Of a stretch of DNA of 40,657 nt, positions 1-17,322 are shown piece after piece (position 1 is the first letter of the stretch; each line of letters starts with the position of its first letter). The position numbers and the translations under genes were made by a program. The stretch spans positions 1 through 40,657 of the forward strand of contig CACYYS010000010.1 in the NCBI GenBank assembly GCA_902778725.1, read 5' to 3'. The stretch comes from an uncultured Ruminococcus sp. Its GTDB lineage: Bacteria > Bacillota > Clostridia > Oscillospirales > CAG-272. Under the pieces are notes generated by a model. The model was not told where the DNA came from, ran no database searches, and saw nothing but the letters and a program-made list of their open reading frames with translations.

Positions 1-1894
1 TTTTGACCTGGGCGACGCGGAAAGCGCCGTCTGTGTACTTCCCAAAGAAGGGGCAAAAGAGCCTCAGATGCTGACGATCCGCGAGGCACAGAGCTTTATC
101 ACAGCCTATGCCAGGCTCCTCGACCAGGAGCTGATCATAGGAGAAGGCGCCTGCTACCACCCCGGGGCAACGGAACGTAAACTCCGCTTCAAGAGCCATT
201 TCCTGACGGACCGGGAAAGCGAAGCGGATATCCGCTGCTTCGCGGCCGGCGTCCTGGGCGAGCTCTATAAGAACGGAGACCTGGTCCAGGGAGAGGACTG
301 CTGTTTCTACGTCGGCTGTCCGGCCGGCTGGGACAAGAACACCCGGGAGCGATACCGGCGGATCTTTGAAAAGGTGGGCTATCCGCCCGCCAGGATCATC
401 TCGGAATCCAGGGCGGCCCTGGTCAGCGCCTGCCAGTCCAAACATCTGCAGATCGGATACGATATCCTGGCTCATCCGGTCCTGGTCGTGGATATTGGCT
501 CCTCTACGACCGATTTCGCCTATGTCAGCAAAGGGCATGAGGTGGAACTGCGTACGGCCGGCGAAGTCAGCCTGGGCGGCGGCATCATGGATGAGCTGCT
601 GCTGGAGGAGGCCCTGAAGCGGTCTCCCCGGGAGAAAAAGATCCGGGCTATTTTCGACAAGGTCCCGCCCTGGCGCAGCTACTGTGAATTCGCCGCCAGG
701 CGGCTCAAGGAGAAATATTTCTCCGATGAGGAATACTGGAGCAGAAACACCTGTACCCAGAACGTCCGGATCAACTACAGCCTGCCCATACGCCTGACCC
801 TGCAGATGGACCGGCAGATCGCGAATGATATACTGCGCAGGCCCACAGACCGCCTGAACGGCAGATCCTTTGAACAGGTCTTCCTGCAGAGCCTGGAGGA
901 TGTCAAAAAGAACATTGACGGGGATCAGCCGGAGCTCCTCTTCCTGACCGGCGGCGTTTCCAAGATGCCGGCCATCCGGGACTGGTGCCTGCAGGTCTTT
1001 CCGGATTCCGTGGTCATTTCCGGGAGCGATCCCGAATTCTCGGTCTGCAAGGGCCTGGCCTGGTGCGGCAGCATCGATGAGGAACTGCGGGAATTTGTCC
1101 AGGAGATCGAGCAGCTCAAGGATTCCAGTGTCGTGGAGCGGATCGTCGGAGAACATATTGATGATCTGTACCGCCAGGTCGTGGACGCCCTGATCGATCC
1201 CATCCTGGAAAACGCCGTCCTGCCCGTCATTGACAGATGGCGGAACGGAGAGATCGAGCGGCTCCAGGACATTGACAAGGTCCTGCAGAATGAAATCGCC
1301 CTCTGGCTCCATACTGCTGATGCCAGAGAACTCCTTCTGCACGTGGTATCCACCTGGATCAAACCCGTTGCTTACGAGCTGGAGGAATACACCGTCCCCA
1401 TCTGTACCCGGCACAAGGTCCCCTACCGGGCCATGAGCCTGTCCACCTATCTGCAGCTGTCCGAGCTGGAGATCAAGGTCGTCACAAAGGAAGTGTTCGC
1501 GGTCGAAGAGATCACCTGGATGATCGATGCCATTATCACACTGCTCGTCGGCCTCCTGTGCGGCGGCAGCGGTGTTGCCCTGATCGCCGGCGGCATCCCG
1601 GGGATTATTGCCGGCAGCGTGATCTCCCTGCTGGTGCTCCTGCTGGGCGCCAATAAAATGCAGGACATGCTGGTCAGGGCCAACCTGCCCCTTCCCATGC
1701 GCAAGCTCCTGCCCCGCGGCTATTTCGAGTCCCGTCTGGGCAGGATCAGTGAGAAGATCCGGGCCGATTTCTATGAAAACCTGGAGAAGGAAAAGAACGA
1801 ACAGATCTCCGAGCGCATGGTAGCGGATATTTCCGGCCAGATCGAGGAATGCCTGATCAAAATGGCCAAAGTGGTGGAAATCCCTCTGGGATAG
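1..1894 (+). CDS. Hsp70-like ATPase with C-terminal membrane hairpin (5' end cut by window)
   Basis: The reading frame is open from base 2, and its first visible residues (FDLGDAESAV) look like the phosphate-1 loop of an actin/Hsp70 ATPase. The true start therefore lies just upstream of the window, and the internal ATG at 68 is not the start. A second phosphate motif (VLVVDIGSSTTDFAYV, about 480-530) and an adenosine motif (FLTGGVSKMPAI, about 940-975) follow in the expected order. There is no normal Hsp70 substrate-binding domain. Instead a helical region leads to two adjacent hydrophobic segments with a Gly-rich turn (about 1520-1660) and a charged helical tail. This suggests a membrane-anchored, DnaK-like ATPase rather than a general chaperone. 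Substrate and partner are unknown. The fold is fairly certain; the biological role is not. Confidence 0.8.
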   Translation, partial: FDLGDAESAVCVLPKEGAKEPQMLTIREAQSFITAYARLLDQELIIGEGACYHPGATERKLRFKSHFLTDRESEADIRCFAAGVLGELYKNGDLVQGEDCCFYVGCPAGWDKNTRERYRRIFEKVGYPPARIISESRAALVSACQSKHLQIGYDILAHPVLVVDIGSSTTDFAYVSKGHEVELRTAGEVSLGGGIMDELLLEEALKRSPREKKIRAIFDKVPPWRSYCEFAARRLKEKYFSDEEYWSRNTCTQNVRINYSLPIRLTLQMDRQIANDILRRPTDRLNGRSFEQVFLQSLEDVKKNIDGDQPELLFLTGGVSKMPAIRDWCLQVFPDSVVISGSDPEFSVCKGLAWCGSIDEELREFVQEIEQLKDSSVVERIVGEHIDDLYRQVVDALIDPILENAVLPVIDRWRNGEIERLQDIDKVLQNEIALWLHTADARELLLHVVSTWIKPVAYELEEYTVPICTRHKVPYRAMSLSTYLQLSELEIKVVTKEVFAVEEITWMIDAIITLLVGLLCGGSGVALIAGGIPGIIAGSVISLLVLLLGANKMQDMLVRANLPLPMRKLLPRGYFESRLGRISEKIRADFYENLEKEKNEQISERMVADISGQIEECLIKMAKVVEIPLG

Positions 1895-1942
1895 GACTGG
1901 CAGCGGCAGACCCTGCCGGGCAGGTCCCGCATAAAGAAAAAC

Positions 1943-1976
1943 AAGCCTGCGGAATTCTTTTCGATTCCGCAGGCTT
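1943..1976. terminator. Bidirectional hairpin terminator
   Basis: A perfect 13-bp stem (AAGCCTGCGGAAT / ATTCCGCAGGCTT) with an 8-nt loop is flanked by A-rich and T-rich sequence. It lies between the convergent Hsp70-like and TetR-fusion genes and can serve both. Confidence 0.8.
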
Positions 1977-2027
1977 TCCTTATGCGCCGGGCCTGTTTCC
2001 GCTCCGGCATTTCCCCTTCCTGTATAT

Positions 2028-3704
2028 TCAGCTGCCGGAAGAATAAGCTCTGCTGTCCACAGTCCGGATAAAGCGCAGTCCCTGCTTCTGGTAGCTTTCC
2101 ATGCCGTCGCCGGACACATAGTTGATGACCGGCAGTTCTGTCTTGAAGAGCGGGGTGATCACAGCCTGGCCTGTCAGGGCAGGGCCTGTCAGGCTGTCAT
2201 TGTAAATATTGACCACATGGGTGTCGCTGTTGACCTGGTAATACTTCTTGCCCGGCAGACGGACGATACAGGAGCCGGTCTCATTGAGGCCATAGGAATC
2301 CGTCAGTCCCGGTCCGAAGACCTCTGTCAGCAGGACACGGGTCTCCTCCGTCAGGGGCGCCCCGGTGGCTGTATAATACTGGGGCTTCCAGACCCGGATC
2401 CCCCGCTCACTGGCGTAAGCCGCGATCCCGGCCAGGATCTCCTGGTAGTTATAGAGATAGTCCGGCCTGTAGGCGTTGATCTCACGGATCAGCTCCTGCA
2501 TGTCATCGGAATCCTTCATGGCTTTTCTGCGCAGGATACCGAAGCGCTGGATCATGGAATCCATATCCCTGCCTTCCTGCCCGGGCAGCAGGGTCCTGGA
2601 CATGGTCTTGCCGGTGAAGGGATTGTATCCGGGCAGGGCCAGCACGCGCAGCCAGTTGGCGGTCAGCCAGGCATTCTCGTTGGGAGAAAAGGGAATCCGC
2701 AGGGCTTTACCCGTTGTGCCCGAGGTCGTATGGATATGCCAGGCATTGAATCTGCCGGCATCTCCCGACAGCTCTGCCGCCAGCCAGCCTTCCAGCTCCT
2801 CTCTGGTCAGGACCGGGAACCGGTACAGATCTTCCGCTTTCCGGTAATCAGCCGGCCTGGTACCGGACCTGCGGAAACGCTCCCGGTAAAAAGGGATCTC
2901 CCAGGCTGCTTCCATCAGCTCCCGGATCCTGCGGTTCTGGATCTCGACCATCTGCCTGGCATTGCGGGAAGTGACCGGATCCCGGACCAGGGAAAGATAA
3001 TCCTGCATGGCGTTGATGTGTTCCATACGGGCGTCATTTTCATAATTGCGATTCGGTATGCCGGTGACAGGCGCTTTACCGGCCAATGTCCCCTGTGCAG
3101 CTCCTTCTTTTTCTTTTGTCTGTTCTGATTTCCTCTCTTCCGGGGCCGGCGCGGGCTGCCAGCCGTTCTCCATGACCCTGCGGGTCTCCCGGATCAGGGT
3201 CTCCCGGTCCAGATCCGTTTCTCCCGAAGCGTACTCGACCAGGATCTGGGCCAGGCCGGCCGCTGTATAGGAAGCCACCAGCTTCTGGGATCTGGCCGTC
3301 TGTCCTTTTTCCGCGATCATATGAGCCTGCAGATAATCCCGCAGGACCCGGCGGCATTTGTCCGTAAAGGGCATGATCCTGTCCTCCGCCGCCATCTTGC
3401 GGAAGAATTCCTTCTCCTCCGCGTGCCGGCCGATCCAGTCGAACAGGGACTCCACGGAAAACTCCTCCTGACTGTACAGATAATTCATGAAATCCGCCGA
3501 CAGGTCATCCGCGTACTCTGTCAGGATGTCATCGATGGAATCATAATGCAGGTAGAAGGTCTTGCGGTTGATATCCGCCAGTTCCGCCACCTCCGTGATG
3601 CTGATGTCACTGTAATGGTCCTTCTGCAGGACCAGCGTCATAAAGGCGCCGCGGATATCTTTTTTGATCTTATAAAAACGTCTGTCACTGGAAGTCCTGT
3701 ACAT
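2028..3704 (-). CDS. TetR-type DNA-binding domain fused to PaaK-like adenylate-forming domain
   Basis: This is a 558-residue protein. I chose the ATG at 3704 because AGGAAGAG lies just upstream; an in-frame extension to 3761 has no support. Residues ~1-190 form a TetR/AcrR-type regulator, with the helix-turn-helix at ~35-54 (ITEVAELADINRKTFYLHY) and a helical ligand-type domain. A charged, Pro-rich linker (~190-225) follows. Residues ~228-558 resemble PaaK/CapK/LuxE-type adenylate-forming enzymes: the P-loop-like TSGTTGK is at ~327-333 and DSYGLNETG at ~469-477. The chain stops soon after, so the small C-terminal lid domain of these enzymes appears to be missing. An acyl-adenylate sensor fused to a DNA-binding domain is possible, as is a regulated enzyme. 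No frameshift is visible between the halves. Confidence 0.75.
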   Translation of the reverse strand: MYRTSSDRRFYKIKKDIRGAFMTLVLQKDHYSDISITEVAELADINRKTFYLHYDSIDDILTEYADDLSADFMNYLYSQEEFSVESLFDWIGRHAEEKEFFRKMAAEDRIMPFTDKCRRVLRDYLQAHMIAEKGQTARSQKLVASYTAAGLAQILVEYASGETDLDRETLIRETRRVMENGWQPAPAPEERKSEQTKEKEGAAQGTLAGKAPVTGIPNRNYENDARMEHINAMQDYLSLVRDPVTSRNARQMVEIQNRRIRELMEAAWEIPFYRERFRRSGTRPADYRKAEDLYRFPVLTREELEGWLAAELSGDAGRFNAWHIHTTSGTTGKALRIPFSPNENAWLTANWLRVLALPGYNPFTGKTMSRTLLPGQEGRDMDSMIQRFGILRRKAMKDSDDMQELIREINAYRPDYLYNYQEILAGIAAYASERGIRVWKPQYYTATGAPLTEETRVLLTEVFGPGLTDSYGLNETGSCIVRLPGKKYYQVNSDTHVVNIYNDSLTGPALTGQAVITPLFKTELPVINYVSGDGMESYQKQGLRFIRTVDSRAYSSGS

Positions 3705-3720
3705 AAAAATCTCTCTTCCT

Positions 3721-3806
3721 GTCAAGCATATGGTACAGCCGTGTATCAGATTTCCGGGCATATCCCCGGAACCGGCTGATTTCCGATTTTTTCGTCAACA
3801 TATGGT
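3721..3806. promoter_or_regulatory. Candidate operator: direct repeat upstream of the TetR fusion gene
   Basis: GTCAAGCATATGGT (3721-3734) and GTCAACATATGGT (3794-3806) are near-identical direct repeats with a CATATG core. They flank an inverted repeat (TTCCGGG 3752-3758 / CCCGGAA 3765-3771). On the minus strand a TACAAT -10-like element lies just upstream of the distal copy. The position suggests autoregulation by the TetR-type domain; this is inference. Confidence 0.45.
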
Positions 3807-3871
3807 TATTGTACCACATGTGTGTAAAAAATACATTTTCCGGAATCATATTTTTCCAAAACGCGTTTCAT

Positions 3872-3907
3872 AAAAACAGCAGCGGGCCGGACCGTTCCGG
3901 CCTGCTG
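3872..3907 (-). terminator. Terminator after the VanX-like lipoprotein gene
   Basis: Read on the minus strand, a strong GC-rich hairpin (arms 3896-3907 and 3877-3891, one bulge) is followed by a run of five T. It lies about 35 bases after the stop codon of the VanX-like gene. Confidence 0.7.
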
Positions 3908-3941
3908 CCGCAGGCATCACTGATGTTGCTTTTCCCTTTTA

Positions 3942-5159
3942 TCACTCTCCTGTAATGGACGTGCTGTTCACAGGGAATGTGAAATAGGTGTCGGGATAGG
4001 GTTCATCCACAAGGGTGAAATGCCACCATTCCTCCTCCAGAGGCTTGAAGCCATGCTTCATCATAGCTTCCCGCAGGATCATGCGGTTCTCGTACTGCTC
4101 CTCCGTAATATCCGTATAATCCGGATGGCTGAGCTCACCGAAATAGTCAAAAGTACCGCCCATATCCACTTCTTTTTCCGTCTCCATATCGAACAGGGTC
4201 AGGTCCACGGTGCTGCCCCGGCTGTGACCGGAATGCTCCGCGATGTACCCCTGGGGGAAAAGGACGTCTTTGTCCAGTTCGGGATAGAAGTACTGCTTCA
4301 TGCGGACATCCTCTTCGTCCAGAGCCCATGCCATAAAGTTGTCGACTGCCATCTGGGGACGATAGGCGTCATAAATCTTTAAGCGGTATCCCTGGCTGAT
4401 CAGATCGTCGCTGGCTTCCTTCAGGGCGGCAGCCGCCTCTTCTGTCAGGATGGCCACCGGCTCCTCATAGCCGTCGATCCTGTCTCCTACAAAGTTGTAG
4501 GTGGAATAGTAACGGATCTCCAGGATGGCATCCGGCACCGCTTCACTCAGAAGGACAAAGTCAGAAGCGTCATCCGAAAGATTTGTCCCGTCTTCCGCAG
4601 TCGTTTCGCCGGTCTCCGGCTCCTCTTCGGATACCTTTACGAACACGCCGTCCTCCTCATTGGCGGAATCCTTCCAGCGGACCTTCTCCCCTTCTTTCAT
4701 GAAGGCTCCATTTGTCGTGGTCTCGTCTTTGGTGCTTTCATTTCCTTCCGCGTCCACGACGTGGGTATAATGTCTGGCATTTTCATAGGTCAGCATACCG
4801 GAAGCTTCATCATAGTTTCCTTCAATCTCCCAGACCGCGGCTTCTGTGGCGCTTCCGCCCCAGCTGACCGTGATCACGTAACTGCCATCCTTTTTCCGCG
4901 CGGCGCTCATCACGGCCCGTTTGCTGATTTCATCCTCCCAGGAGCCGGATAGATCCATCGGACCCGCGATCTCGTCCAGGACCTCCGCTTCTGCCGCCGT
5001 CAGATCCGCGGCCGCCTGATCCGCCTCTGCCTGCACGTCTTCAGCAGCCTCCGCTGTATTGGGTTCCGCCGGCTGGGCCGCGCTGCCGGAACTGCAGGCT
5101 GTCATCATCACAGCCGTGCCCGTGACCAGTGCCAGTATACTGAATGTTTTTCTTACCAT
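3942..5159 (-). CDS. Lipoprotein with C-terminal VanX-like D-Ala-D-Ala dipeptidase domain
   Basis: This is a 405-residue exported lipoprotein. The ATG at 5159 is preceded by AAGGAGACAGCT. The signal peptide ends in a lipobox with Cys22 (MMTAC). An Ala/Glu-rich linker and a lipocalin-like beta region with many Trp/Gly residues (~60-175) precede the catalytic domain (~200-400). That domain has the peptidase M15D (VanX/DdpX) signature: RP in YDAYRPQ, His312 and Asp319 in SGHSRGSTVD, Glu377 and His380 in EEEWWH. The spacing matches the zinc ligands and catalytic Glu of VanX. The likely role is hydrolysis of D-Ala-D-Ala or related cell-wall dipeptides outside the membrane. VanX itself is cytoplasmic and confers vancomycin resistance only with VanH and VanA, which are not here, so salvage or wall turnover is more likely than resistance. 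Confidence 0.85.
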   Translation of the reverse strand: MVRKTFSILALVTGTAVMMTACSSGSAAQPAEPNTAEAAEDVQAEADQAAADLTAAEAEVLDEIAGPMDLSGSWEDEISKRAVMSAARKKDGSYVITVSWGGSATEAAVWEIEGNYDEASGMLTYENARHYTHVVDAEGNESTKDETTTNGAFMKEGEKVRWKDSANEEDGVFVKVSEEEPETGETTAEDGTNLSDDASDFVLLSEAVPDAILEIRYYSTYNFVGDRIDGYEEPVAILTEEAAAALKEASDDLISQGYRLKIYDAYRPQMAVDNFMAWALDEEDVRMKQYFYPELDKDVLFPQGYIAEHSGHSRGSTVDLTLFDMETEKEVDMGGTFDYFGELSHPDYTDITEEQYENRMILREAMMKHGFKPLEEEWWHFTLVDEPYPDTYFTFPVNSTSITGE

Positions 5160-5502
5160 AGCTGTCTCCTTCTTTTTACATTTTTTATAGTTCTGTTCCA
5201 TACTTATGTCTTTTGTGGAATATCTGTTGTTTTCCAAATGACGCTTTGCGAATCCGCTTTTATTATTATATCAAGTCTGTCCGCGCTGATGGAACAACTT
5301 CCTTCCTGAATAAATGTCTGTATCCCGATACACTTTTTCATACGAAGTGCGGATCCCGGCGGCCAAAAAAGTGCCCGCCGGAACTCCGGCGGACACTCCG
5401 CAAATGACATAATCTGTCTTTTTTACATAATTGTCTTAAAAGCCAGGATCCATGACCGGCTCTGTAAGCCTGTCAGACATCTGCCTGAAAGGCGAATATT
5501 CT
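5160..5502. other. Intergenic region without a gene (VanX-like leader and lactate permease 3' region)
   Basis: These 343 bases hold the leader of the VanX-like gene, with a minus-strand TATAAT at 5265-5270 but only a weak -35, and the terminator of the lactate permease. Short frames on both strands have no ribosome site and no recognisable product. Confidence 0.5.
5371..5396 (-). terminator. Terminator after the lactate permease gene
   Basis: On the minus strand the arms GTGTCCGCCGG and CCGGCGGGCAC pair across a short loop and run into TTTTTT. One pair is a G-U wobble only in the minus-strand RNA, which supports this direction. Confidence 0.75.
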
Positions 5503-7206
5503 TTACATAAAGGACGGATTGACACCTGCCGCCATCATAATACCGACAACGCCGGCTACAATCAGAGCGTAGAGCAGACAGGGAATAATATTGGTCCGGA
5601 TCAGCAGGCCTTCGTTTCCGTTGGTACCGGTCGTCGCGCCGACGGCAACGATGTTGTTGATACAGATCATATTGCCGATGGCGCCGCCCATGTTCTGCAG
5701 GGCTACGATCAAAACCTGATTCAGTCCCAGGACTGTCGCGACCTCGAACTGCAGGCTGGCGAACAGTGTATTGGATACGGTACAGGATCCTGACATAAAG
5801 GCGCCCAGAACGCCGATATACGGCGCGACCAGGATATAGGCCTTGGAGAATACGCCGCCGATGGCATGGGCCATGGCATAGATCATACTGCTGTTCATGT
5901 TGCTGTAGGTGCCGGCCGCGCTGTCAATGGCCTGGCCAATGGCCTCGCTGGAAGTAAAACGATAGATGTTGACCGTGGCGACACCGAACAGAAGGGCAAA
6001 AGCCGCGCCGGAGATCATCTTCAGGGAATCCTTGACCGCGATCCTGGCGTTTTTGGCGGATACCTTGTGGGCGAACAGCGTAAAAATGGCTGTGACCATG
6101 AAGGGCAGAATACCCGGATTGTACAGGAACTTGAACGCCCAGTCGATCTCCTCGAATCCCAGGATATTGTCAATATGCAGGATAAAAGGCTCCGAATTCA
6201 GGATCGCCTTGATGCCGAACGCGTCGACTCTGGTCAGGAACAGGACTACGCAGATGATCAGGTAAGGAAGCAGGGAATAGCGGATCCGCAGATGGGTATC
6301 TCTGGCGTCACGAATATGCTGGGCGGACTGCCATTCATCCTCTCCCCATTCTTCCACGCCTTCAAAGGTCCACTTCTCTTTGGGGACAAGGAAGCCCTTT
6401 CTGGCGGAAATGACCGCGACCACAAGAGCCGTCAGGAAAGCCGTCATGGAGACCAGTTCGGGGCCCGCGATGATGGCCATCAGGATATAGACGGTTCCCA
6501 GCACGCCGCCGATGAAGAGGCAGAAGGGAATGACCGGAATAACATCCTTAAAAGATTTGTTCCTGCCGAATACCTTGCACAGGACAGCGACGCCCATAAT
6601 AATGACCGCGATACCGCCGATCATGTGAGGGATACAGGTAAAGATGGTCAGCAGACGGGTGAACTTGTCAGGATCTCCGCCAAGTCCCTTGACCGCTTCC
6701 GCGACCATATTGGCGCCGGTCAGGGTAGGAACACCGACCGGACCGGGACATACCGGTGTTGAATTATAGATCAGGCATACGGAAGCTGCCGCCAGGGGCG
6801 GGAAGCCCAGGCTGATCAGGATCGGGGCGCCCAGGGCCGCGGGGGTTCCGAAGCCGGCAACGCCTTCAATAAAGCCGCCGAACAGGTAGCCTACGATGAC
6901 GGCCTGGATTCTGGCGTCTCTTGTCACTCTGGAGAAAATATGGTTGATGGTGACCATGGCACCGGACATTTTCAGGACATTCATCAGCAGGATGGCGCCG
7001 AAAATAATACAGATAGTTTCGAAGGCGCCCAGGAATCCTCCAATGGTCCTGGCCGCGATCTCTTTGACTCCCATTCCCCAGACAGCGGCCGCGATGACTG
7101 CCGCCAGGATCCATGCCAGAGGCAGGGCTCTCTTAGCCGGCCAGCCAAAAAAGACCATCAGGATAACTGTCGTGAGAATCGGGATCGATGCAATCAGAGC
7201 ATACAT
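5503..7206 (-). CDS. lctP: L-lactate permease (LctP family)
   Basis: This 567-residue polytopic membrane protein has about 12-14 hydrophobic segments across its full length. It shows hallmarks of the LctP/LldP family of lactate (and glycolate) proton symporters: the conserved segment GFIEGVAGFGTPAALGAP and NSTPVCPGPVGVPTL in the N-terminal half, and conserved Gly/Asn-rich helices near the C-terminus. Length is typical for the family. The ATG at 7206 is preceded by a strong AGAGGAGG. The gene stands alone with its own promoter and terminator; no lactate dehydrogenase or LutABC genes are adjacent in the window. It most likely imports or exchanges lactate. Substrate assignment rests on family membership only. 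Confidence 0.9.
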   Translation of the reverse strand: MYALIASIPILTTVILMVFFGWPAKRALPLAWILAAVIAAAVWGMGVKEIAARTIGGFLGAFETICIIFGAILLMNVLKMSGAMVTINHIFSRVTRDARIQAVIVGYLFGGFIEGVAGFGTPAALGAPILISLGFPPLAAASVCLIYNSTPVCPGPVGVPTLTGANMVAEAVKGLGGDPDKFTRLLTIFTCIPHMIGGIAVIIMGVAVLCKVFGRNKSFKDVIPVIPFCLFIGGVLGTVYILMAIIAGPELVSMTAFLTALVVAVISARKGFLVPKEKWTFEGVEEWGEDEWQSAQHIRDARDTHLRIRYSLLPYLIICVVLFLTRVDAFGIKAILNSEPFILHIDNILGFEEIDWAFKFLYNPGILPFMVTAIFTLFAHKVSAKNARIAVKDSLKMISGAAFALLFGVATVNIYRFTSSEAIGQAIDSAAGTYSNMNSSMIYAMAHAIGGVFSKAYILVAPYIGVLGAFMSGSCTVSNTLFASLQFEVATVLGLNQVLIVALQNMGGAIGNMICINNIVAVGATTGTNGNEGLLIRTNIIPCLLYALIVAGVVGIMMAAGVNPSFM

Positions 7207-7245
7207 AAATGTGTCCTCCTCTTTGTTTTTCTCTTACACGATAAC

Positions 7246-7274
7246 ATATTAAGACACATTTATTTATTTTTCAA
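7246..7274 (-). promoter_or_regulatory. Promoter of the lactate permease gene
   Basis: On the minus strand TTGAAA (7269-7274) and TAATAT (7246-7251) are 17 bp apart, about 40 bases before the start codon. Imperfect inverted ACACAT/ATTTGTGT elements surround it and could bind a regulator. Confidence 0.6.
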
Positions 7275-7364
7275 CATTTGTGTATTAAAAAAGTTCAAAA
7301 ATATCCGCCGGGACTTTGTGCAAAGTGCAAAAAACGAACAGGATTCCTGCATATCTTCCGGAAT

Positions 7365-7416
7365 TTGTATTTGCGGAACGCATGTGGTAAGATAGCGTGA
7401 CCGGCCGGAACGGCCG
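7365..7416 (+). promoter_or_regulatory. Promoter and leader hairpin of the chimeric PhoU-domain ORF
   Basis: TTGTAT (7365-7370) and TAAGAT (7388-7393) are separated by 17 bp. A short GC hairpin follows in the leader, CGGCCG-GAA-CGGCCG (7402-7416). Confidence 0.45.
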
Positions 7417-7449
7417 CAGACCGATCAAAACACAGAATTGGAGATAATG

Positions 7450-8301
7450 ATGACTTCCAGAAATAAATCTTTCTACAGACATTCCGGTTCGACGAAAAAG
7501 CGGCAGCCCCATTATAAGATCATCCGCAAGGCAGCTGAGGAAGCCCCTTCCCGGACTGCCCCCTCTCATCCCGGCGCTTTTCAGGAAAGGCTTGCTTTCT
7601 ATCTGTCGGAGCAGGAGGAACAGTTCGCTTCCGTCCTGGCAGGGAGCGGCTTCTCCTTCGATCTGGTCCTGGGCGGGGAACGGATCGGCTTCCGCAGAAA
7701 GTCGGACCGCTATACAGATGACACCATGGAAAATGTTGAGACCGTATTCCTGGCGTTTCCCCAGAACGGAGATAAGAAGCGGCTGCTGCAGGGCTGCCTG
7801 ATCACCCTGCACGGGAAAAACCTCTCTCCGCACGATCTGGAGAGTCTCGGTATGATGTTCCACGTCACAAGCGACGTAGAGCGCCTCGGAGACCACGCGG
7901 AAAACGTGGCGGATTATACCGTCCAGATCGGCGGCGCGAAACTCCCCACCCTCTTCAGCGAGCCCGCGATTGAAGAGCTGCATACCATCGCGGACAAGAC
8001 TATGCTCGTCGTCGAAATGGCGATCGAAGCATATGATCAAGAGAAATTCGATATGCTTCCTGCGATCAGCGACGCGGAGGAGGAGGTGGATCAGCTCCAG
8101 GAAACGCTGATCGCCCACCATATCGAACGTCTCAAAAACGACCAGTGCGACCCGCAGGGCGGCGTTATCTTCACCGATCTGGTAACGGATCTTGAACGCT
8201 GCGCCGACCACGCGATCAACATCGCCTACGCCATCAACGGAGAAAAATCCACCGTCGCCGTCAAAAAATATATCATCACCCGCGGCGAAGAAAACGATTG
8301 A
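7450..8301 (+). CDS. Chimeric ORF: unknown N-terminus joined to the C-terminal PhoU domain of a Na/Pi cotransporter
   Basis: GGAG at 7440-7443 favours the ATG at 7450 (alternatively 7447). Residues 1 to ~121 are basic, then mixed, and I do not recognise them. From ~residue 125 the chain becomes a PhoU-type helical bundle with two classic repeats: HVTSDVERLGDHAENVADY, and DLVTDLERCADHAINIAY near the end. This is the cytoplasmic tail found at the C-terminus of NptA/Na-Pi cotransporter II proteins. The transmembrane transporter part (~350 residues or more) and the first PhoU helix are absent. Leucine codons switch from CTG only to CTC-rich at the same point. I think this is not a natural gene but two gene fragments joined at about 7812-7830. 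A genuine fusion is possible. Confidence 0.6.
   Translation: MTSRNKSFYRHSGSTKKRQPHYKIIRKAAEEAPSRTAPSHPGAFQERLAFYLSEQEEQFASVLAGSGFSFDLVLGGERIGFRRKSDRYTDDTMENVETVFLAFPQNGDKKRLLQGCLITLHGKNLSPHDLESLGMMFHVTSDVERLGDHAENVADYTVQIGGAKLPTLFSEPAIEELHTIADKTMLVVEMAIEAYDQEKFDMLPAISDAEEEVDQLQETLIAHHIERLKNDQCDPQGGVIFTDLVTDLERCADHAINIAYAINGEKSTVAVKKYIITRGEEND
7812..7830. other. Probable chimeric or recombination breakpoint
   Basis: Protein identity and codon use both change here inside one open frame. The eight Leu codons from about 7621 to 7811 are all CTG; the next six are CTC, CTG, CTC, CTC, CTC, CTC, and GCG and CGC become common. All genes to the right share the second style. Confidence 0.55.
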
Positions 8302-8340
8302 GATTCCTAATATTTTACATATAAGAGAAAGGATAAAATC

Positions 8341-8919
8341 ATGGCAAACAAAGTTATCGTCGAGACCTCCGCGAGACACGTCCATCTGACCGAAGAACAC
8401 ATCGAAGTCCTGTTCGGCAAAGGCGCGACCCTGACAAAGAAGAAGGACCTCAGCCAGCCCGGGCAGTTCGCTTCCGAGCAGCGCGTCACGCTGGAGGGCC
8501 CGAAAAAGTCCATCCCCAACGTCAGCATCCTCGGACCCGCGAGAAGCGCGACGCAGGTCGAAGTCGCCTTCACCGACGCGCGCACCCTCGGCATCACCGC
8601 TCCCGTCCGTGAGAGCGGCGATATCGCCGGCAGCGCCCCGATCCGCATTGTCGGCCCCGCCGGCTCTCTTGAGATCGCGGAGGGCGTCATCATCGCAAAA
8701 CGTCATATCCATCTGACGCCCGAGGATGCGAAAGCGTTCAACGTGAAAGACAAAGAGATCGTCTGCCTCAAGATCGACAGCGCGGACAGATCGACCGTCT
8801 ACGACGACGTTGTGGTCCGCGTGAGCCCGAAGTTCAAAGCGGCGGCCCATCTCGACACCGATGAAGCGAACGCCGCCTGCGCCTTCGGCGAGTGCTGGGG
8901 CGAGATCATAAAAAAATAA
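8341..8919 (+). CDS. pduL: Phosphate propanoyltransferase (PduL-type phosphotransacylase)
   Basis: This 192-residue protein moves an acyl group between CoA and phosphate (acetyl- or propionyl-CoA to the acyl phosphate). It is unrelated to the Pta enzyme but has the same function. The two PduL half-domains each begin with the conserved zinc-ligand motif: ARHVHLTEEH (His13, His15) and AKRHIHLTPEDA (His122, His124). Length is slightly short but complete. No long N-terminal encapsulation peptide is visible and no microcompartment shell genes lie nearby, so it is probably a soluble housekeeping enzyme for ATP-yielding acetate or propionate formation. It follows the PhoU-domain ORF by 39 bases, has AAAGGA before the ATG, and is followed by an IscU-like and a GGGtGRT gene at 22 and 15 bases, suggesting one transcript. 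Acyl specificity cannot be told from sequence. Confidence 0.9.
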   Translation: MANKVIVETSARHVHLTEEHIEVLFGKGATLTKKKDLSQPGQFASEQRVTLEGPKKSIPNVSILGPARSATQVEVAFTDARTLGITAPVRESGDIAGSAPIRIVGPAGSLEIAEGVIIAKRHIHLTPEDAKAFNVKDKEIVCLKIDSADRSTVYDDVVVRVSPKFKAAAHLDTDEANAACAFGECWGEIIKK

Positions 8920-8941
8920 AACAATTTCTGAGGAGGAAACC

Positions 8942-9640
8942 ATGAGTTATCAGTATTCCAACGAAGTGGAAAACATGTGCTGCGTCGCCAAAGGTCCGAA
9001 GCACGGTCCCGCTCCGATCCCGGAGGAAGGCCGCTGGGTCGAGGCAAAGCAGATCACCGATATTTCCGGTTATACGCACGGTGTGGGCTGGTGCGCGCCG
9101 CAGCAGGGCGCCTGCAAGCTCTCCCTCAACGTCAAGAACGGCGTGATCGAAGAGGCGCTGGTCGAGACCATCGGCTGCTCCGGCATGACCCACTCCGCCG
9201 CAATGGCGGCTGAGATCCTGCCCGGTAAAACGATCCTCGAGGCGCTCAACACCGACCTTGTCTGCGACGCGATCAACACCGCGATGCGCGAGCTCTTTTT
9301 GCAGATCGTTTACGGCCGCACACAGTCCGCCTTCTCCGAGAACGGTCTTGTCATCGGTGCGGGAATGGAAGACCTCGGTAAGGGACACCGCAGCATGGTC
9401 GGCACCATGTACGGCACGAACGCCAAGGGAGTCCGTTATCTTGAGATGACCGAGGGCTACTGCACGAGGATGGCTCTGGACGAAAACGACCAGGTGATCG
9501 GCTACGAGTTCGTTTCCATCGGCAAAATGACCGACTTCATCAAGAAGGGCATGGAGCCGAACGAGGCTTACAAAAAGTCGATGGGCACCTACGGACGGTT
9601 CGACGAAGCGGTCCGGTATATCGACCCGAGAGAAGAATAA
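8942..9640 (+). CDS. IscU/NifU-like iron-sulfur scaffold-type protein
   Basis: This 232-residue protein has an excellent ribosome site (GAGGAGGAAACC). Residues ~45-125 match the IscU/NifU-N fold: Cys51 and Cys58, then GCSGMTHSAAMAAEILPGKT (Cys79) and Cys108 in LVCDAINTAMREL. These resemble the conserved cysteines and the GCG(A/S)-IASSS helix of IscU. It is longer than IscU (~130 aa): it has an N-terminal extension with a CC pair (13-14) and a C-terminal ~100-residue part with VIGAGMEDLGKGHRS. No cysteine desulfurase (iscS/sufS) is adjacent, so it is unlikely to be the main scaffold. Versions of this protein are known to sit next to GGGtGRT-family genes, as here. It may build or hold a cluster for that partner; this is inference. 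Confidence 0.8.
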   Translation: MSYQYSNEVENMCCVAKGPKHGPAPIPEEGRWVEAKQITDISGYTHGVGWCAPQQGACKLSLNVKNGVIEEALVETIGCSGMTHSAAMAAEILPGKTILEALNTDLVCDAINTAMRELFLQIVYGRTQSAFSENGLVIGAGMEDLGKGHRSMVGTMYGTNAKGVRYLEMTEGYCTRMALDENDQVIGYEFVSIGKMTDFIKKGMEPNEAYKKSMGTYGRFDEAVRYIDPREE

Positions 9641-9655
9641 GAGGAGGACGATACG

Positions 9656-10654
9656 ATGGCAAATTTTGAAGGCTACGAAAGACGCGAGGCAAAGATCCTC
9701 GCCGTTCTGAAGGAATACGGCATCTCCTCGATCGACGAATGCAAAGAGATCACGCTCGCAAAAGGCATCGACGTGGACCAGATCGTCCGCAGCACCCAGC
9801 CCATCTGCTTCGAGAACGCGATCTGGGCTTATACGGTCGGCACCGCGATCGCCGTCAAGACCGGCTGCAAAAAAGCCGCCGACGCCGCAGCCGCGATCGG
9901 AGTGGGTCTCCAGTCCTTCTGCATCCCCGGCTCCGTCGCGGAAAACCGCAAGGTCGGCCTCGGACACGGCAACCTCGGCAAGATGCTCCTCTCCGAGGAA
10001 ACGGAGTGCTTCTGCTTCCTCGCCGGTCACGAGAGCTTTGCCGCCGCCGAAGGCGCGATCAAGATCGCGCTCAACGCAAACAAAGTGCGCGTGAACCCGC
10101 TGCGCGTCATCCTCAACGGTCTCGGCAAGGACGCCGCGTTCATCATCTCCCGTATCAACGGATTCACCTACGTGGAGACCGAATTCGATCCCTATACCGA
10201 AACGGTGAAGATCGTCTCGGAAACTCCCTACTCCAAGGGTCCCCGCGCCGCGGTCCACTGCTACGGCGCCGACAACGTCCCCGAGGGCGTCGCGATCATG
10301 AAGCTCGAGAACGTGGGCGTTTCCATCACCGGCAACTCCACGAACCCGACCCGCTTCCAGCATCCCGTCGCCGGCACCTACAAGAAATGGTGCGTGGAAA
10401 ACGGCAAAAAATACTTCTCCGTCGCCTCCGGCGGCGGTACTGGCCGCACGCTGCATCCCGACAACATGGCGGCCGGTCCCTCTTCCTACGGCATGACCGA
10501 CACGATGGGACGTATGCACTCCGACGCGCAGTTCGCCGGCTCCTCCTCCGTTCCCGCGCACGTCGAAATGATGGGCCTGATCGGTATGGGCAACAACCCG
10601 ATGGTCGGCGCCACCGTCGCCTGCGCCGTCGCGGTCGAAGAAGCGATGAAATAA
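9656..10654 (+). CDS. GGGtGRT family protein
   Basis: This 332-residue protein belongs to the family named for its GGGtGRT motif (PF14057), seen here as SGGGTGRTLHPDN with the motif at residues 259-265. Other conserved-looking features are GLGHGNLGKMLLSEE and CFCFLAGHESFAAAEGA in the middle, several cysteines, and a Gly/Met-rich C-terminus (MMGLIGMGNNPMVGATVACA). No signal peptide or membrane segment is seen, so it is probably cytoplasmic. To my knowledge the biochemical function is not established. It follows the IscU-like gene by 15 bases with an AGAGGAGG ribosome site, so the two are very probably co-translated and work together, possibly as a metal- or cluster-dependent enzyme. A strong hairpin terminator follows. 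Confidence 0.88.
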   Translation: MANFEGYERREAKILAVLKEYGISSIDECKEITLAKGIDVDQIVRSTQPICFENAIWAYTVGTAIAVKTGCKKAADAAAAIGVGLQSFCIPGSVAENRKVGLGHGNLGKMLLSEETECFCFLAGHESFAAAEGAIKIALNANKVRVNPLRVILNGLGKDAAFIISRINGFTYVETEFDPYTETVKIVSETPYSKGPRAAVHCYGADNVPEGVAIMKLENVGVSITGNSTNPTRFQHPVAGTYKKWCVENGKKYFSVASGGGTGRTLHPDNMAAGPSSYGMTDTMGRMHSDAQFAGSSSVPAHVEMMGLIGMGNNPMVGATVACAVAVEEAMK

Positions 10655-10664
10655 GCGCAAAAAG

Positions 10665-10697
10665 AAAAGATCCGCACACAGTGTGTGCGGATCTTTT
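10665..10697. terminator. Bidirectional hairpin terminator
   Basis: A near-perfect 15-bp stem built on AAGATCCGCACAC and its complement has a 3-nt loop and A-rich and T-rich flanks. It separates the GGGtGRT gene from the convergent ABC ATPase gene, whose stop lies only a few bases away. Confidence 0.9.
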
Positions 10698-10700
10698 TTC

Positions 10701-11612
10701 TTACAGGACCTTGGAGAGAAAGGTCTTCAGACGTTCGGTTTTCGGCGCCCCAAAAATCTCCGCCGGCGTTCCGCTCTCGGCGATCATACCGTCCGCCATA
10801 AAGAGGACCCGGTCGGCGACCTCGCGCGCAAAGCCGATCTCATGCGTCACAACGACCATCGTCATACCGTCTCCGGCAAGCCGCTTCATCAGATCGAGCA
10901 CCTCCCCGACCATCTCGGGGTCAAGCGCCGAAGTCGGCTCGTCAAAGAGCATGACCTCCGGATCCATGCAAAGCGAGCGCACGATCGCGATCCTCTGCTT
11001 CTGCCCGCCGGAGAGCGTGGACGGATAGGCTTGCGCCTTGTCGGTCAGCCCGATCATGGAGAGCAGGTCCATTGCTTTTTCCGTCGCTTCTTCCTTCGTC
11101 TTCTTTTTGAGTTCTACCGGCGCCAGCGTCATATTCTGCAGCACCGTGAGATTATTGAAAAGGTTAAAATGCTGGAAGACCATCCCGACCTTAGCCCGCG
11201 CCAGATTCTCGTCAAGATAGTACTGCCTGTAATACGCCTTCATCTTGCGGGCGTACTCCGGACCTTCGTTTTTTTCATGGAGGAGGTCTTCCTGCTTGAT
11301 TTTTGCGATCAGCCCGTCGTCCTTTCCCTGCGCGGCCGCAAGCTTTTTTTTGTAGGTGCGGGAGGATCTGATGATCTCCTCGTGCAGATAGGGATCGACC
11401 GGCGTGAGAAGGTTATCGTCGAGCCACACCTCGCCGAAGGTCGGTCGCTCAAGCAGATTCATACAGCGGAGCATGGTCGATTTGCCGGAGCCGGAAGCGC
11501 CGAGCACAACGATCCTTTCCCCTTTTTTGATCCCGCAGGAGACACCCTTCAGGACCTGCAATTTTCCGAAATACTTGTAGAGTCCGCGTATCTCGATCAG
11601 ATTACCGTTCAT
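10701..11612 (-). CDS. Amino-acid ABC transporter ATP-binding protein with an insertion
   Basis: This 303-residue polar-amino-acid importer ATPase is of the GlnQ/ArtP/HisP type. It has Walker [10 protein letters not shown] (~39-47), Q-loop VFQHFNLF, signature LSGGQKQR, Walker [15 protein letters not shown] and the switch His in VVVTHE. Typical family members have ~240 residues. The extra ~60 lie between Walker A and the Q-loop (~75-135), a Lys/Glu-rich helical stretch with [13 protein letters not shown] and [13 protein letters not shown], placed where the lobe-I beta subdomain meets the helical domain. The ATG at 11612 has AAAGGAGG upstream and overlaps the permease stop by 11 bases, so the two are translationally linked. 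It powers import with the upstream permease and binding protein. Confidence 0.92.
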
Positions 11613-12309
11613 TTTTCTTCAGCCTCCTTTCGATCAGGTGCTGGAGAAAGGTGAGGAGCATAACGACGGCAAGATAGAGCAGCGCCGCAAAGAAGAGGAA
11701 AACAAGATAGCAGGCGGGCGTCGCCAATCCCTGCTTTTCCGCCATGCCGAGCAGATCGTATTTCTGCACGGAATTGACCTTGAGGACGATATAACTGACG
11801 ACAGAGGTCTCCTTGACGAGAATAATGATCTCGTTGAAGATCGTCGGAACGACCGTCTTGACCGCCTGAGGGATAATGACGCGCCGCATGGTGATGATCC
11901 AGGAGAGCCCGAGGCTGCGCCCCGCCTCCATCTGCCCGATATCGACCGCGGAAATGCCGGAACGGATGATCTCCGCCATATATGCGCCCGAGTTGATACC
12001 GAACGCGATGATCGGGACAAGGAGATTGGTCGGCATCCGCTTGAACCAAACCAGTACCGAGTTATAGAGGATCAGAAGCTGGACGAGGGTAGGCGTCCCG
12101 CGTATCACCGTGATATAGAGAACGGCGATCTTGTCGAAAAAGCGGATCACGGGATTTGTTTTGGGAGCGATCCGGATGACGGCGAGGATCACGCCGATGA
12201 TAAAACCGAGGACAACCGCTCCGAAGGCGATTAACAGGGAATATCCGAGGCTTTCAGCAAACAAGCCTCGGAGATCCCACAGTTTTTCTATTTTTTCCGC
12301 AAATGTCAT
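11602..12309 (-). CDS. Amino-acid ABC transporter permease
   Basis: This 235-residue HisM/GlnP-type membrane permease has about five transmembrane helices, the RGTPTLVQL segment typical of polar amino-acid permeases, and the EAA loop ([20 protein letters not shown]) that docks the ATPase. Only one permease gene is present, so the channel is probably a homodimer. It starts 21 bases after the binding-protein stop. No good Shine-Dalgarno sequence is visible before the ATG, so translation may depend on read-on from the gene before it. It belongs to the argG-argH-importer gene run. Confidence 0.92.
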
Positions 12310-12330
12310 ATCGGTTCAGTCAGATACGGG

Positions 12331-13104
12331 TCAGCTGCTGTGTTTTACCGTAAACTGATCGATCTTGCCGTCCGCGATCATCTTTTTCAGGAGTGTGTTG
12401 ACCTGATCCACGAGAGCGCCGTTTTCCTTGTTGAAGTACAGCACATAGGATTCCATATCGCCGTCCAGGCACCAGCACTGCAGATTGCTGTCGCTCTTGC
12501 AGATCGCCTCGGCCGGCATCTTGTCGATCACAACGGCGGAAACGGTGGTGCCGATATCCTTCGACGCCACGATGGCGTTGGAATACTCAAAGCTCTTGAC
12601 CTCGGTATTCGCGATCGCCTCGCTCACCATATCGGCGCCGGTCGTTCCCTTCTGAACGCCGATCGCCTTGGTGCCTTGACCCGCTATGTAAGCGACCGCG
12701 TCCGCCATCTTGACCTGCTCGCCGGTGAAGGTGCCCTTCGGCGCGATGATGTACTGGATGGAGGTGGCGTAAACTTCGCTTGCAAGCGCCACTTCGTCGC
12801 GCTCCGCCTTCTTGCTCATGCCGGCGGCGCCGACGGCGTTTTTGTCCTTGGAAACTTCATTGAGGATCGCGTTGAACTCGATGTCGTGGACGACGACCTT
12901 GTAGCCGAGTTCTTCGCCGATCGCGTTGACGACGTCGATGTCGACCCCGACGACGTTGCCTTTGTCGTCAAGATACTCATAGGGAGCAAAGCCCGCGTTG
13001 GTATAAACGTTGAGGACCTTTTCGTCTCCGGTGCTGCAGGAGGCAAAGAGCAGACAAGTTGCAAAGAGCACTGCTGTCAGGAGGATGGACGTAAACTTTT
13101 TCAT
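12331..13104 (-). CDS. Amino-acid ABC transporter substrate-binding lipoprotein
   Basis: This 257-residue protein has a lipoprotein signal peptide (lipobox FASC, Cys23) and a type-II periplasmic binding fold of the polar-amino-acid family (SBP_bac_3). It starts with the usual NVYTNAGFAPYEY segment and contains VGVDIDVVNAIGEELG, which precedes the ligand pocket. It is tethered outside the membrane and delivers ligand to the permease. It begins 30 bases after argH on the same strand, with AAAGGAAAAACC before the ATG and no terminator in between. That position suggests arginine, citrulline, ornithine or another arginine precursor as the ligand; the sequence alone does not prove this. Confidence 0.92.
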   Translation of the reverse strand: MKKFTSILLTAVLFATCLLFASCSTGDEKVLNVYTNAGFAPYEYLDDKGNVVGVDIDVVNAIGEELGYKVVVHDIEFNAILNEVSKDKNAVGAAGMSKKAERDEVALASEVYATSIQYIIAPKGTFTGEQVKMADAVAYIAGQGTKAIGVQKGTTGADMVSEAIANTEVKSFEYSNAIVASKDIGTTVSAVVIDKMPAEAICKSDSNLQCWCLDGDMESYVLYFNKENGALVDQVNTLLKKMIADGKIDQFTVKHSS

Positions 13105-13134
13105 TTTGGTTTTTCCTTTCTTTCTTTTGAAAAA

Positions 13135-14514
13135 TTATATGCTTTTTATTTTTTCTTTGATTTCGGCAAGCTGCGTTTCCACGGAGGAAACGGACGTTCC
13201 TCCGGCGCTTCTTCGCTTGTTCACGCAGGCGGCAAGATCGATCTCGCCGTAAAGATCCGTGTCAAACAACTCGGATTGGGATCGGTAGGTTTCGGGCGGG
13301 AGCTCTTCAAGGGAGCATCCTTGTCTGATCGCCTCGGCGACAAGTTTGCCGGAAAGGCGGTACGCGTCCCGGAAGGGCATTCCCTTTCTGGTGAGGTAAT
13401 CCGCGAGATCCGTCGCGTTGAGGAATCCTTCCTTTGCCGCCGAGAGCATCCGCTCCGCTTGCGGATTTGCGGTCGCGAGCATCCCGGTGAACACGGGGAG
13501 ACAGGCCTTCACGGTATCGCAGGCGTCGAAAAGGCTTTCCTTGTCCTCCTGCATATCCTTGTTATAGGCGAGCGGAAGACCTTTGAAGACCGTGAGGAGC
13601 GCAACGAGATCGCCGTAGACTCTCCCGGTTTTTCCCCGTACGAGCTCCGCCATATCGGGATTCTTTTTCTGCGGCATGATCGAGGAGCCGGTCGTATAGG
13701 CGTCCGAGAGCTGCAAAAAACCGAACTCGGAGCTCGACCAAAGGACAATCTCCTCGGAAAAGCGGGAAAGATGCATCATCAAAATCGCGAGCGCGGACAG
13801 AAACTCAACGGCAAAATCGCGGTCGGCTACCCCGTCGATGCTGTTCGGGACGATCCCGGAAAAGCCGAGCAGCTCCGCCTCGTATGCCCGGTCTGTCGGG
13901 TAAGTAGTCCCCGCGAGAGCGCAGGATCCGATCGGCGAGAGGTCGGTACGCGCCAGCGCGTCCCGGATCCGGTCCGCGTCTCGCAGAAACATATACGCGT
14001 AAGCAGAGAGATGATGGCCGAAGGTGATCGGCTGCGCGTGCTGGAGGTGCGTGTAGCCCGGCAGGATCAGTTCCTTTCCCGCTTCCGCCTTCTCCGCGAT
14101 CACGGAGACAAGAGCCTTCAGCAGCGCAAGGATCGCGCCGCCCTCTTTTTTGAGATAGAGACGCAGGTCAAGGGCGACCTGATCGTTGCGGCTGCGGGCG
14201 GTGTGGAGCTTTTTCCCCGCTTCGCCGATCCGCTTGGTCAGCGTCTCCTCGACGAACATATGAATATCTTCGCTCCCCGGATCGATCGCGAGTTTTCCGG
14301 TTTCCAGATCCGCGAGGATCCCGTAAAGACCCTCGATGATCTCCTGTGCTTCGCTTTGCGAGAGGATCGAGCATTTTTCCAGCATCTTCGCGTGAGCGAC
14401 GCTTCCCGTGATGTCCTCCCGGTACATCCGGCTGTCAAAGCGGATCGAGGAATTGAAGTCGTCCGCCTGCCGAGAGGTGACGCCGTCAGTCCTGCCCGCC
14501 CAAAGCTTTGCCAT
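13135..14514 (-). CDS. argH: Argininosuccinate lyase
   Basis: This 459-residue fumarase/aspartase-superfamily enzyme performs the last step of arginine biosynthesis, splitting argininosuccinate into arginine and fumarate. The family signature GSSIMPQKKNPD with its catalytic Ser loop lies at ~275-287. The conserved TARSRNDQVALDLRLY segment and HLQHAQPITFGHHL are present. Length is normal. The ribosome site AAGGAG overlaps the argG stop codon and the ATG is 3 bases beyond it, so argG and argH are translationally coupled. The amino-acid importer genes follow directly. Confidence 0.97.
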   Translation of the reverse strand: MAKLWAGRTDGVTSRQADDFNSSIRFDSRMYREDITGSVAHAKMLEKCSILSQSEAQEIIEGLYGILADLETGKLAIDPGSEDIHMFVEETLTKRIGEAGKKLHTARSRNDQVALDLRLYLKKEGGAILALLKALVSVIAEKAEAGKELILPGYTHLQHAQPITFGHHLSAYAYMFLRDADRIRDALARTDLSPIGSCALAGTTYPTDRAYEAELLGFSGIVPNSIDGVADRDFAVEFLSALAILMMHLSRFSEEIVLWSSSEFGFLQLSDAYTTGSSIMPQKKNPDMAELVRGKTGRVYGDLVALLTVFKGLPLAYNKDMQEDKESLFDACDTVKACLPVFTGMLATANPQAERMLSAAKEGFLNATDLADYLTRKGMPFRDAYRLSGKLVAEAIRQGCSLEELPPETYRSQSELFDTDLYGEIDLAACVNKRRSAGGTSVSSVETQLAEIKEKIKSI

Positions 14515-14517
14515 CGG

Positions 14518-15741
14518 TCACTCCTTATTCTTCGCGTCGACGAGGGCTTTTACCTTGATCGGCAGACCGTACAGATTGATAAAGCCGGCGCTGTCCTTCT
14601 GGTTGTAATCGCTCTCCCCGAAGGTGGCGATCTCCTCGCTGTAAAGGGAATACTTGCTGGTCATACCCGCGAGGATGATGTTGCCCTTATAGAGCTTCAA
14701 CTTCACCTCGCCTGTCACCGTCTCCTGCGTTTTATCCACAAAGGCGGAGAGCGCCTCCCGGAGCGGGGTGAACCACTGGCCGTTGTAGACAAGCTCGCCG
14801 AAGGTGATCGCCAGTTTCGCCTTTTCGTGCATCGTCAGCTTGTCAAGGCAGAGGCTCTCCAGCTTCCGGTGCGCATAATAGAGGATCGTTCCGCCCGGCG
14901 TTTCATAGACGCCGCGGCACTTCATCCCGACAAGGCGGTTTTCCACGATGTCGAGGAGGCCGATCCCGTTTTTGCCGCCGAGTTCGTTTAATTTCAGGAT
15001 AATATTCTTGGCGCTCATCTTTTCCCCGTTTAGCGCGGTCGGGACGCCCTTTTCAAACGAGAGGGCGAGGTAGGTGGGAGTATCCGGCGCGTCGATCGGA
15101 GAGACCCCCATCTCAAGGAACCCCGGCTTTTCATACTGCGGCTCGTTTGCGGTGTCTTCCAGATCCAGCCCTTCGTGAGAAAGATGCCAGAGGTTTTTAT
15201 CCTTGGAATAATTGGTCTCCCGGCTGATCTTCAGCGGGACGCCGTGCGCCTCGGCGTAATCGATCTCCTCGTCTCTCGATTTGATCGTCCACTCGCGCCA
15301 CGGCGCGATGATCGGCATATCGGGCGCGAAATGCTTGATCGCCAACTCGAATCGGACCTGGTCGTTTCCCTTTCCGGTGCAGCCGTGGCAGATGGCGTCC
15401 GCCTTTTCCTTTTTGGCGATCTCGACAAGCCCTTTTGCGATGCAGGGACGGGCGTGAGAGGTCCCGAGCAGGTAATCCTCGTAGACGGCGCCGGCCTTCA
15501 TCGTCGGGATGATGTAGTCGTCGACGTACTCGTCGGTCAGATCAAGGATATAGAGTTTGGAGGCGCCGGTCTTTTTCGCCTTTTCCTCCAGACCGTCGAG
15601 CTCGTCCGCCTGTCCGACATTGCCGGATACGGCGACGACCTCGCAGTTGTTGTAGTTTTCCTTCAGCCAAGGAATGATGATCGAAGTATCCAGCCCGCCG
15701 GAATAGGCAAGCACGACTTTTTTGATTTTCGTTTTGTCCAT
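14518..15741 (-). CDS. argG: Argininosuccinate synthase
   Basis: This 407-residue cytoplasmic ligase joins citrulline and aspartate using ATP (to AMP and PPi), the penultimate step of arginine biosynthesis. The N-terminal PP-loop nucleotide motif [14 protein letters not shown] is at ~10-23, and the conserved [13 protein letters not shown] segment binds citrulline and aspartate. Length matches the family. ATG at 15741 follows GAGGACGAT. It is the first gene of a run argG-argH-binding protein-permease-ATPase behind a consensus promoter with ARG-box-like sites. No carbamoyltransferase or argB-D genes are in the window. Confidence 0.97.
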
Positions 15742-15764
15742 ATCGTCCTCATTTCCGGATGTGA

Positions 15765-15810
15765 TCCGTGTTTATATGCATATTATAGGTGCGTATATTC
15801 ATTTTGTCAA
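15765..15810 (-). promoter_or_regulatory. argG promoter with two ARG-box-like sites
   Basis: On the minus strand TTGACA (15805-15810) and TATAAT (15782-15787) are both perfect and 17 bp apart. A TGAATATA half-site lies in the spacer and a TGCATATA half-site just after the -10. Their starts are exactly 21 bp apart, the spacing of paired ARG boxes. Left halves match the ArgR consensus well; right halves are poor. Repression by ArgR with arginine is likely but inferred. Confidence 0.75.
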
Positions 15811-15870
15811 GGCTTTTTTGAATATTTATTCTTGATTTTTGATTTTTACACACAAATCTCGATCTCCGGG

Positions 15871-17322
15871 TCAATCCGAAACGCGCACGACGACCGCCGG
15901 TCTCACGCCGTACTTGGAATAGTCCACCATGGCGCCGCGGAGATTGACGGATCCGTCAAAATCGATGCGCGCCGCGTTCGACTGACTGGAGCCGGGCGTG
16001 CGAAGCCAGTACCAGCACGCGTCCGAGCCCTGCTCGTCGTCCTGATAGATCGATTTTGCGGCTGCGTAAGGCGTGGCTGACGCGGAGCCGGAGACCGCCT
16101 CGCCGAAATAGCGCTCCGCCTCCTCCGCGGAGAGACAGAAGACCGTGTCGTTCGTCGGAGCGCCGCCAAGCGTTCCCTGGGCTGTATTATCCGCCGTTGT
16201 ACGGACCGTTTCGACAAGGCGCGCGCGATCCTGCTCGGAAAATGCGCTCTCGAGAAACTCTCCGTCAAGCCACGCGCGGAGGCTGCAGGTCTCCCAGGTC
16301 ACGGAGATATGCGTTTCGTTGTATTTTTTTACGTCGAGGATCCGGCGGGAAAGGAGAAGGACGTTTCCCTCTTCCTCGCCGAGTACGATCCACTCGATCG
16401 GGGTCTTCGTTCCGTTCGTTTCCTGGGGATAAGTTCCGAAAGCAACGACGTCCCCCGCCTCAAGTCCGTAAAAGCGGTACGGTCGGAGCAGTTCTCCGGC
16501 ATCCTTAAAGTCGCCGAGCTCCCGCAAAAGCCGCGCCGCGGAGACGTAATTCCCCGCTTCCAACTCCGACTGCGCCTTCCGGTAACGGGCAAGCGGGCGG
16601 AAATACAGGATCACAGCCAGAAAAAGAGCCAAAAAAGCAGCGGCGGCGGGAAGGATGATCTTCAGGCAGGAGGCGAGCAGCTCCCGTCTGCGGGCGCGGA
16701 GGATCCGCCGCGCTTTTTCTTCTTCTTTCTTTTTTTCCTCCGCCTCCGTCTCTTCGCGCAGGCGCGCTTCCCGCGCCTTTCTCTCCTCTTCTTTTTTTAA
16801 GGCCTCGAGATATTCCTCCGAATATCCCTCCTCTTCCCTTTTTTGCGTTTCCCTGTTTTTCTCGGTCTCGCGGTTTCTCAGGCGGCGCTGCTCCCGCTCG
16901 ATCAGAGACGCAAGCCCGTCAAGAAAGGCGGTCTCGTCCGGATCCGCTTCCCGCAGCGCGGCGAGCAGATCCGGGTCGGAGCGCACGTCCCCCGGCACGA
17001 GCCGGGCGCACACCTCCCTTGTTCCCTCCTGCATAAAACCGCGCTCTCCGGTCACGCCGTACCGGGCGAGGACCATCCCGCTCCTTGAGAGCGGAGTCGG
17101 ATCCGTCTTATTGATCGCTTCAAAAAGCCGGAGCGCGCTGTAAAAATCCCCGCGGGAAAGATAGCGGCAGGCGTCGGCGATATGGGTCTGCCTCTCTCCC
17201 GGCGCGTCCGGGAGGGAGAGCTGTTTCGCTCCGCACGACGGGCAGGAAAGGACCCGGCGCTCCGAGAGAAGGATCGGCTCGCCGCACACGCGGCAGACTG
17301 CGGTCGGTTTTTTCTCTTTCAT
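15871..17322 (-). CDS. Zinc-ribbon, coiled-coil, single-TM protein with C-terminal DUF6273 domain
   Basis: This is a 483-residue protein. I chose ATG 17322 because GGAG sits 5 bases upstream; a GTG at 17326-17328 overlaps the stop of the preceding gene. It has an N-terminal zinc ribbon (Cys10, 13, 27, 30), a helical TPR-like part (~45-135), a long Glu/Lys/Arg-rich coiled coil (~138-213) and one transmembrane helix (~217-242). A short TPR-like repeat (~245-280) leads to a DUF6273 domain (~288-483) beginning VVAFGTYPQ and ending WYWLRTPG and YGVRPAVVV. DUF6273 is common in Clostridia surface proteins and has a C-type-lectin/FGE-like look; its ligand is unknown. The likely topology places the ribbon and coil inside and DUF6273 outside. 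It is coupled to the lipoprotein gene before it. Confidence 0.75.
   Translation of the reverse strand: MKEKKPTAVCRVCGEPILLSERRVLSCPSCGAKQLSLPDAPGERQTHIADACRYLSRGDFYSALRLFEAINKTDPTPLSRSGMVLARYGVTGERGFMQEGTREVCARLVPGDVRSDPDLLAALREADPDETAFLDGLASLIEREQRRLRNRETEKNRETQKREEEGYSEEYLEALKKEEERKAREARLREETEAEEKKKEEEKARRILRARRRELLASCLKIILPAAAAFLALFLAVILYFRPLARYRKAQSELEAGNYVSAARLLRELGDFKDAGELLRPYRFYGLEAGDVVAFGTYPQETNGTKTPIEWIVLGEEEGNVLLLSRRILDVKKYNETHISVTWETCSLRAWLDGEFLESAFSEQDRARLVETVRTTADNTAQGTLGGAPTNDTVFCLSAEEAERYFGEAVSGSASATPYAAAKSIYQDDEQGSDACWYWLRTPGSSQSNAARIDFDGSVNLRGAMVDYSKYGVRPAVVVRVSD

Follow-up and report, generated by a model that had tools for sequence, protein, structure and literature searches.

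Misassembled chimeric contigs are a recognised class of error in MAGs, and a relatively rare one (PMC8201837). In the chimeric contigs described in the GUNC paper, fragments from two sources lie in one contig and the lineage signal changes at one point (PMC8201837). The locus that we describe here shares these features; it differs from the published class in that the join can be placed within 21 bases, both donors can be named, and the native gene that was split can be located on a second contig. The other relevant system is the NptA-type Na/Pi cotransporter, in which a Na_Pi_cotrans membrane domain (PF02690) is followed by a C-terminal PhoU part (PF01895). The stretch of DNA that we analysed (the window, 40,657 nucleotides) is the complete contig C10 of an uncultured Ruminococcus sp. 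MAG, and its positions 7797 to 8301 correspond to the 3' end of such a transporter gene. The membrane domain is absent from the window and is carried by another contig of the same MAG, C2. Judged from the sequence comparisons below, C10 is in all likelihood a metagenome mis-assembly, in which a Lachnospiraceae fragment became attached to the nptA locus native to the MAG.

The joined reading frame and the change in composition

The forward-strand frame at 7450 to 8301 stays open across the join for 283 codons, giving a predicted protein of 283 amino acids. The first-pass annotation had described it as a region of unknown family followed by the PhoU tail of a Na/Pi cotransporter devoid of its membrane domain and of the start of PhoU, and both parts of this description hold. 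A Pfam search identified the C-terminal part as PhoU (PF01895, E 3e-18) and assigned the N-terminal part to no family above the curated cut-off. Residues 113 to 283 are 88–89% identical to the end of the intact 567-residue NptA of two congeners (G002 and G003), whose full protein has PF02690 twice and then PhoU. The tail thus aligned (7797 to 8301, forward strand) covers about residues 398 to 567, i.e., roughly the last 170 residues and most of the PhoU part; the window frame therefore departs from the domain order of the family, having PhoU only. A full-length NptA homologue is present in most relatives of the order. The N-terminal half is matched in none of the 391 genomes searched from the MAG's class, its own genome excepted. 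One candidate from genome G014 (E 0.001, 27% identity) was dismissed, as the similarity falls in the N-terminal stretch, basic and charged, of an unrelated 567-residue protein.

The leucine codons of this frame read, in order, one CTT, and nine CTG in succession (7603 to 7807), after which 8 of the following 14 are CTC. The switch reported by the first-pass annotation is thus real, the run being of nine CTG codons and not of eight. The flanks keep the two styles, as had also been noted: CTG and CTC account for 80% and 11% of 205 leucine codons in the left-side genes, versus 30% and 42% of 419 in the right-side genes (chi-square p ~ 6e-28). Tetranucleotide profiles, which the annotation had suggested comparing and which we compared over selected stretches, separate the two sides in the same way. 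The left piece lies at a distance of 0.11 from Lachnospiraceae pieces and 0.45 from the MAG's other contigs, and the right pieces at 0.17–0.21 from the MAG and 0.42–0.45 from Lachnospiraceae. Composition, in both tetranucleotides and leucine codons, changes where the two donors meet.

Origin of the two sides

The suspicion that the two sides come from different organisms is borne out by their closest relatives. Positions 1 to 7796 are assigned by blastn and tetranucleotides to a foreign segment, a slice of chromosome from a gut or rumen Lachnospiraceae bacterium, resembling RUG13495 and RUG578 (L038 and L039, both uncultured Lachnospiraceae MAGs). The blastn alignments to RUG13495 cover 1 to 5172 at 92.7% identity and 5435 to 7817 at 98.8%, and those to RUG578 cover 2110 to 5172 at 98.3% and 5435 to 7817 at 98.8%. 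The segment encodes an Hsp70/actin-like protein, a TetR-PaaK-like fusion, a VanX-like lipoprotein, and a lactate permease (5503 to 7206) with about 100% protein identity to those of RUG13495 (on a 171-kb contig) and RUG578. Window positions 1 to 7790 have no DNA match in congeners G002 and G003. The donor contig alignment reaches base 1 of the window and continues beyond it as ordinary chromosome, and no integrase, transposase or other integration genes were found among the left-side genes scanned.

Several features of this segment deserve mention in their own right. The frame at 68 to 1894 (forward strand) encodes a distant member of the Hsp70/actin fold whose C-terminal part has hydrophobic stretches. 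The start of this gene is close to the beginning of the contig, and the RUG13495 version has 639 amino acids. On the reverse strand, the 577-residue frame at 2028 to 3761 fuses a TetR-type regulator (DhaS-like) to an AMP-binding part of PaaK type. RUG13495 carries this fusion intact as well (L038:9175-10908), which shows that assembly did not create it. Finally, a stretch of about 262 bp (5173 to 5434) that separates the VanX-like lipoprotein gene from the lactate permease gene is missing at the same position in RUG13495 and RUG578, which reflects either strain variation or a collapse in the assemblies of these two MAGs.

From 7797 to 40657, the window is the MAG's own DNA, as indicated by collinearity with congeners and by tetranucleotides like those of the MAG's other contigs. 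It carries the nptA tail, followed by genes for PTAC, a NifU-like protein, a GGGtGRT protein, ABC transporter components, and onward. From 7797 up to about 21.4 kb, the window aligns collinearly with G003:C39 at 83–90% DNA identity; beyond this point, matches to G002 and G003 are patchy and gapped (71–86%). Between the GGGtGRT gene and a convergent ABC ATPase gene, 33 bases (10665 to 10697) match their own reverse complement at 97%, and this inverted stretch is probably a two-way terminator.

The join and the split nptA gene

Between 7783 and 7817 the window is identical to the left donors, and the homologue of the right side begins at 7797, which places the join within 7797 to 7817, inside the broader interval of 7700 to 7900 given by the first-pass annotation. 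These 21 bases fit both donors: they are exact in the left one and have three mismatches relative to the congener NptA, which stands in for the MAG's native bases, so that the actual extent of the word common to both donors is inferred. When about 111 kb of donor sequence were compared with 123 kb of MAG sequence, they had two 19-mers in common and no 21-mer. Hence, a word of about 20 bases shared by genomes of 2.1–2.5 Mb is unsurprising.

Neither side continues natively as it does in the contig. The left part of the frame (7450 to 7817, forward strand) is the start of a donor gene, the first ~122 codons of a protein that in RUG13495 begins at the same ATG, has 216 amino acids and no Pfam domain (L038:5103-5810, reverse strand). 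Both RUG13495 and RUG578 continue this frame differently past 7817, and a search of the MAG for the donor's native continuation did not find it. On the right side, the intact NptA of the two congeners has its counterpart in a head that we found by searching the MAG with the congener head; the annotation had suggested looking for a full-length NptA in the same bin. This head lies at the extreme edge of a contig (G000:C2:3-1178, reverse strand), encodes 392 residues with 91% identity to G003, and carries PF02690 and the start of PhoU. C2 is syntenic with G003 upstream of nptA across the 20 kb compared. Its base 1 corresponds to G003:C39:16060 and window position 7797 to 16038, with 21 bases missing between them; the MAG's own sequence for these bases, equivalent to window 7776 to 7796, is absent from the assembly. 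These sequence correspondences make the C2 head and the C10 tail two pieces of a single nptA gene. C2 ends without any donor sequence, and the two contigs do not overlap. The donor overlap at 7797 to 7817 and the gap between C2 and the tail are both 21 bases long, which may reflect the word length used by the assembler.

Explanations for the fusion

The divergent continuation of the donors, the native gene split at a contig end, and the switch in composition together support a mis-join. We infer that the join arose in silico, by way of a short word common to both sources: the assembler would have linked the RUG13495/RUG578-like fragment to the nptA locus via the stretch of ~21 bases that fits both, the open frame over the join would have arisen by chance, and the true upstream neighbour of the tail would be the end of C2, 21 bases off. 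One point speaks against this account: plain branches in an assembly graph often leave overlapping contig ends, and C2 and C10 are instead separated by 21 bases, a gap that the mis-join does not explain in detail.

The first-pass annotation had proposed either a chimeric join or a transfer edge, and the split of nptA, with its head at the end of C2, favours the former at the expense of the latter. A recent horizontal transfer, in which the Lachnospiraceae segment inserted into the nptA of this strain with the loss of ~21 bases and C2 terminated at the opposite boundary of this insert, would account for the open frame, for the interruption of C2 inside nptA so close to the join, and for a donor identity high enough for a recent event. 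We nevertheless regard it as very improbable, because the segment is ordinary donor chromosome past base 1 of the window and lacks integrase or transposase among the genes examined, C2 stops without donor sequence, NptA is intact in two congeners with full-length homologues in most order relatives, and the donor's continuation past the join is absent from the MAG. A transferred element would be expected to carry genes for integration and to have a boundary at each end of the insert, and here the left segment continues past the contig end. The chances are slimmer still that at least 7.8 kb of Lachnospiraceae chromosome moved very recently into the nptA of another gut lineage and thereby created an N-terminal/PhoU fusion. 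Were a transfer true, donor chromosome without recognisable integration genes would have entered nptA and C2 would have stopped exactly at the other edge, an improbable coincidence. Least credible of all, to the point of being nearly negligible, is a genuine fusion protein, in which an unknown N-terminal domain and PhoU would form a soluble phosphate regulator: a single ORF with a possible start codon agrees with it, but the two halves are truncated portions of two different proteins that occur whole in other genomes, and the N-terminal half has no match in the 391 class genomes searched. The first-pass annotation had named the same joined ORF in an independent genome as evidence for authenticity, and no copy was found in the 59 genomes of relatives, the MAG itself not counted. 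The mis-join thus stands as the preferred reading, and the fusion gene, found in neither donor organism, almost certainly reflects faulty assembly rather than biology.

The mis-join is a result on data quality: the genome record (G000; 2.10 Mb, 96 contigs, 85% complete) carries 7.8 kb of another species at one contig end. With a reported contamination of 0.95%, genome-wide scores would miss this foreign piece, and the artificial fusion ORF could find its way into protein databases. The 283-residue ORF should be handled as artificial, and inferences that cross the join are unsafe. For curation, C10 should be cut at about 7,800, positions 1 to 7,796 dropped from the MAG, and the sequence from 7797 onward kept and linked to C2. 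This organism should not be credited with the genes for the lactate permease, the VanX-like lipoprotein, the Hsp70-like protein, and the TetR-PaaK fusion. Its own nptA, divided between C2 and C10, seems to be intact except for 21 bases that were left unassembled.
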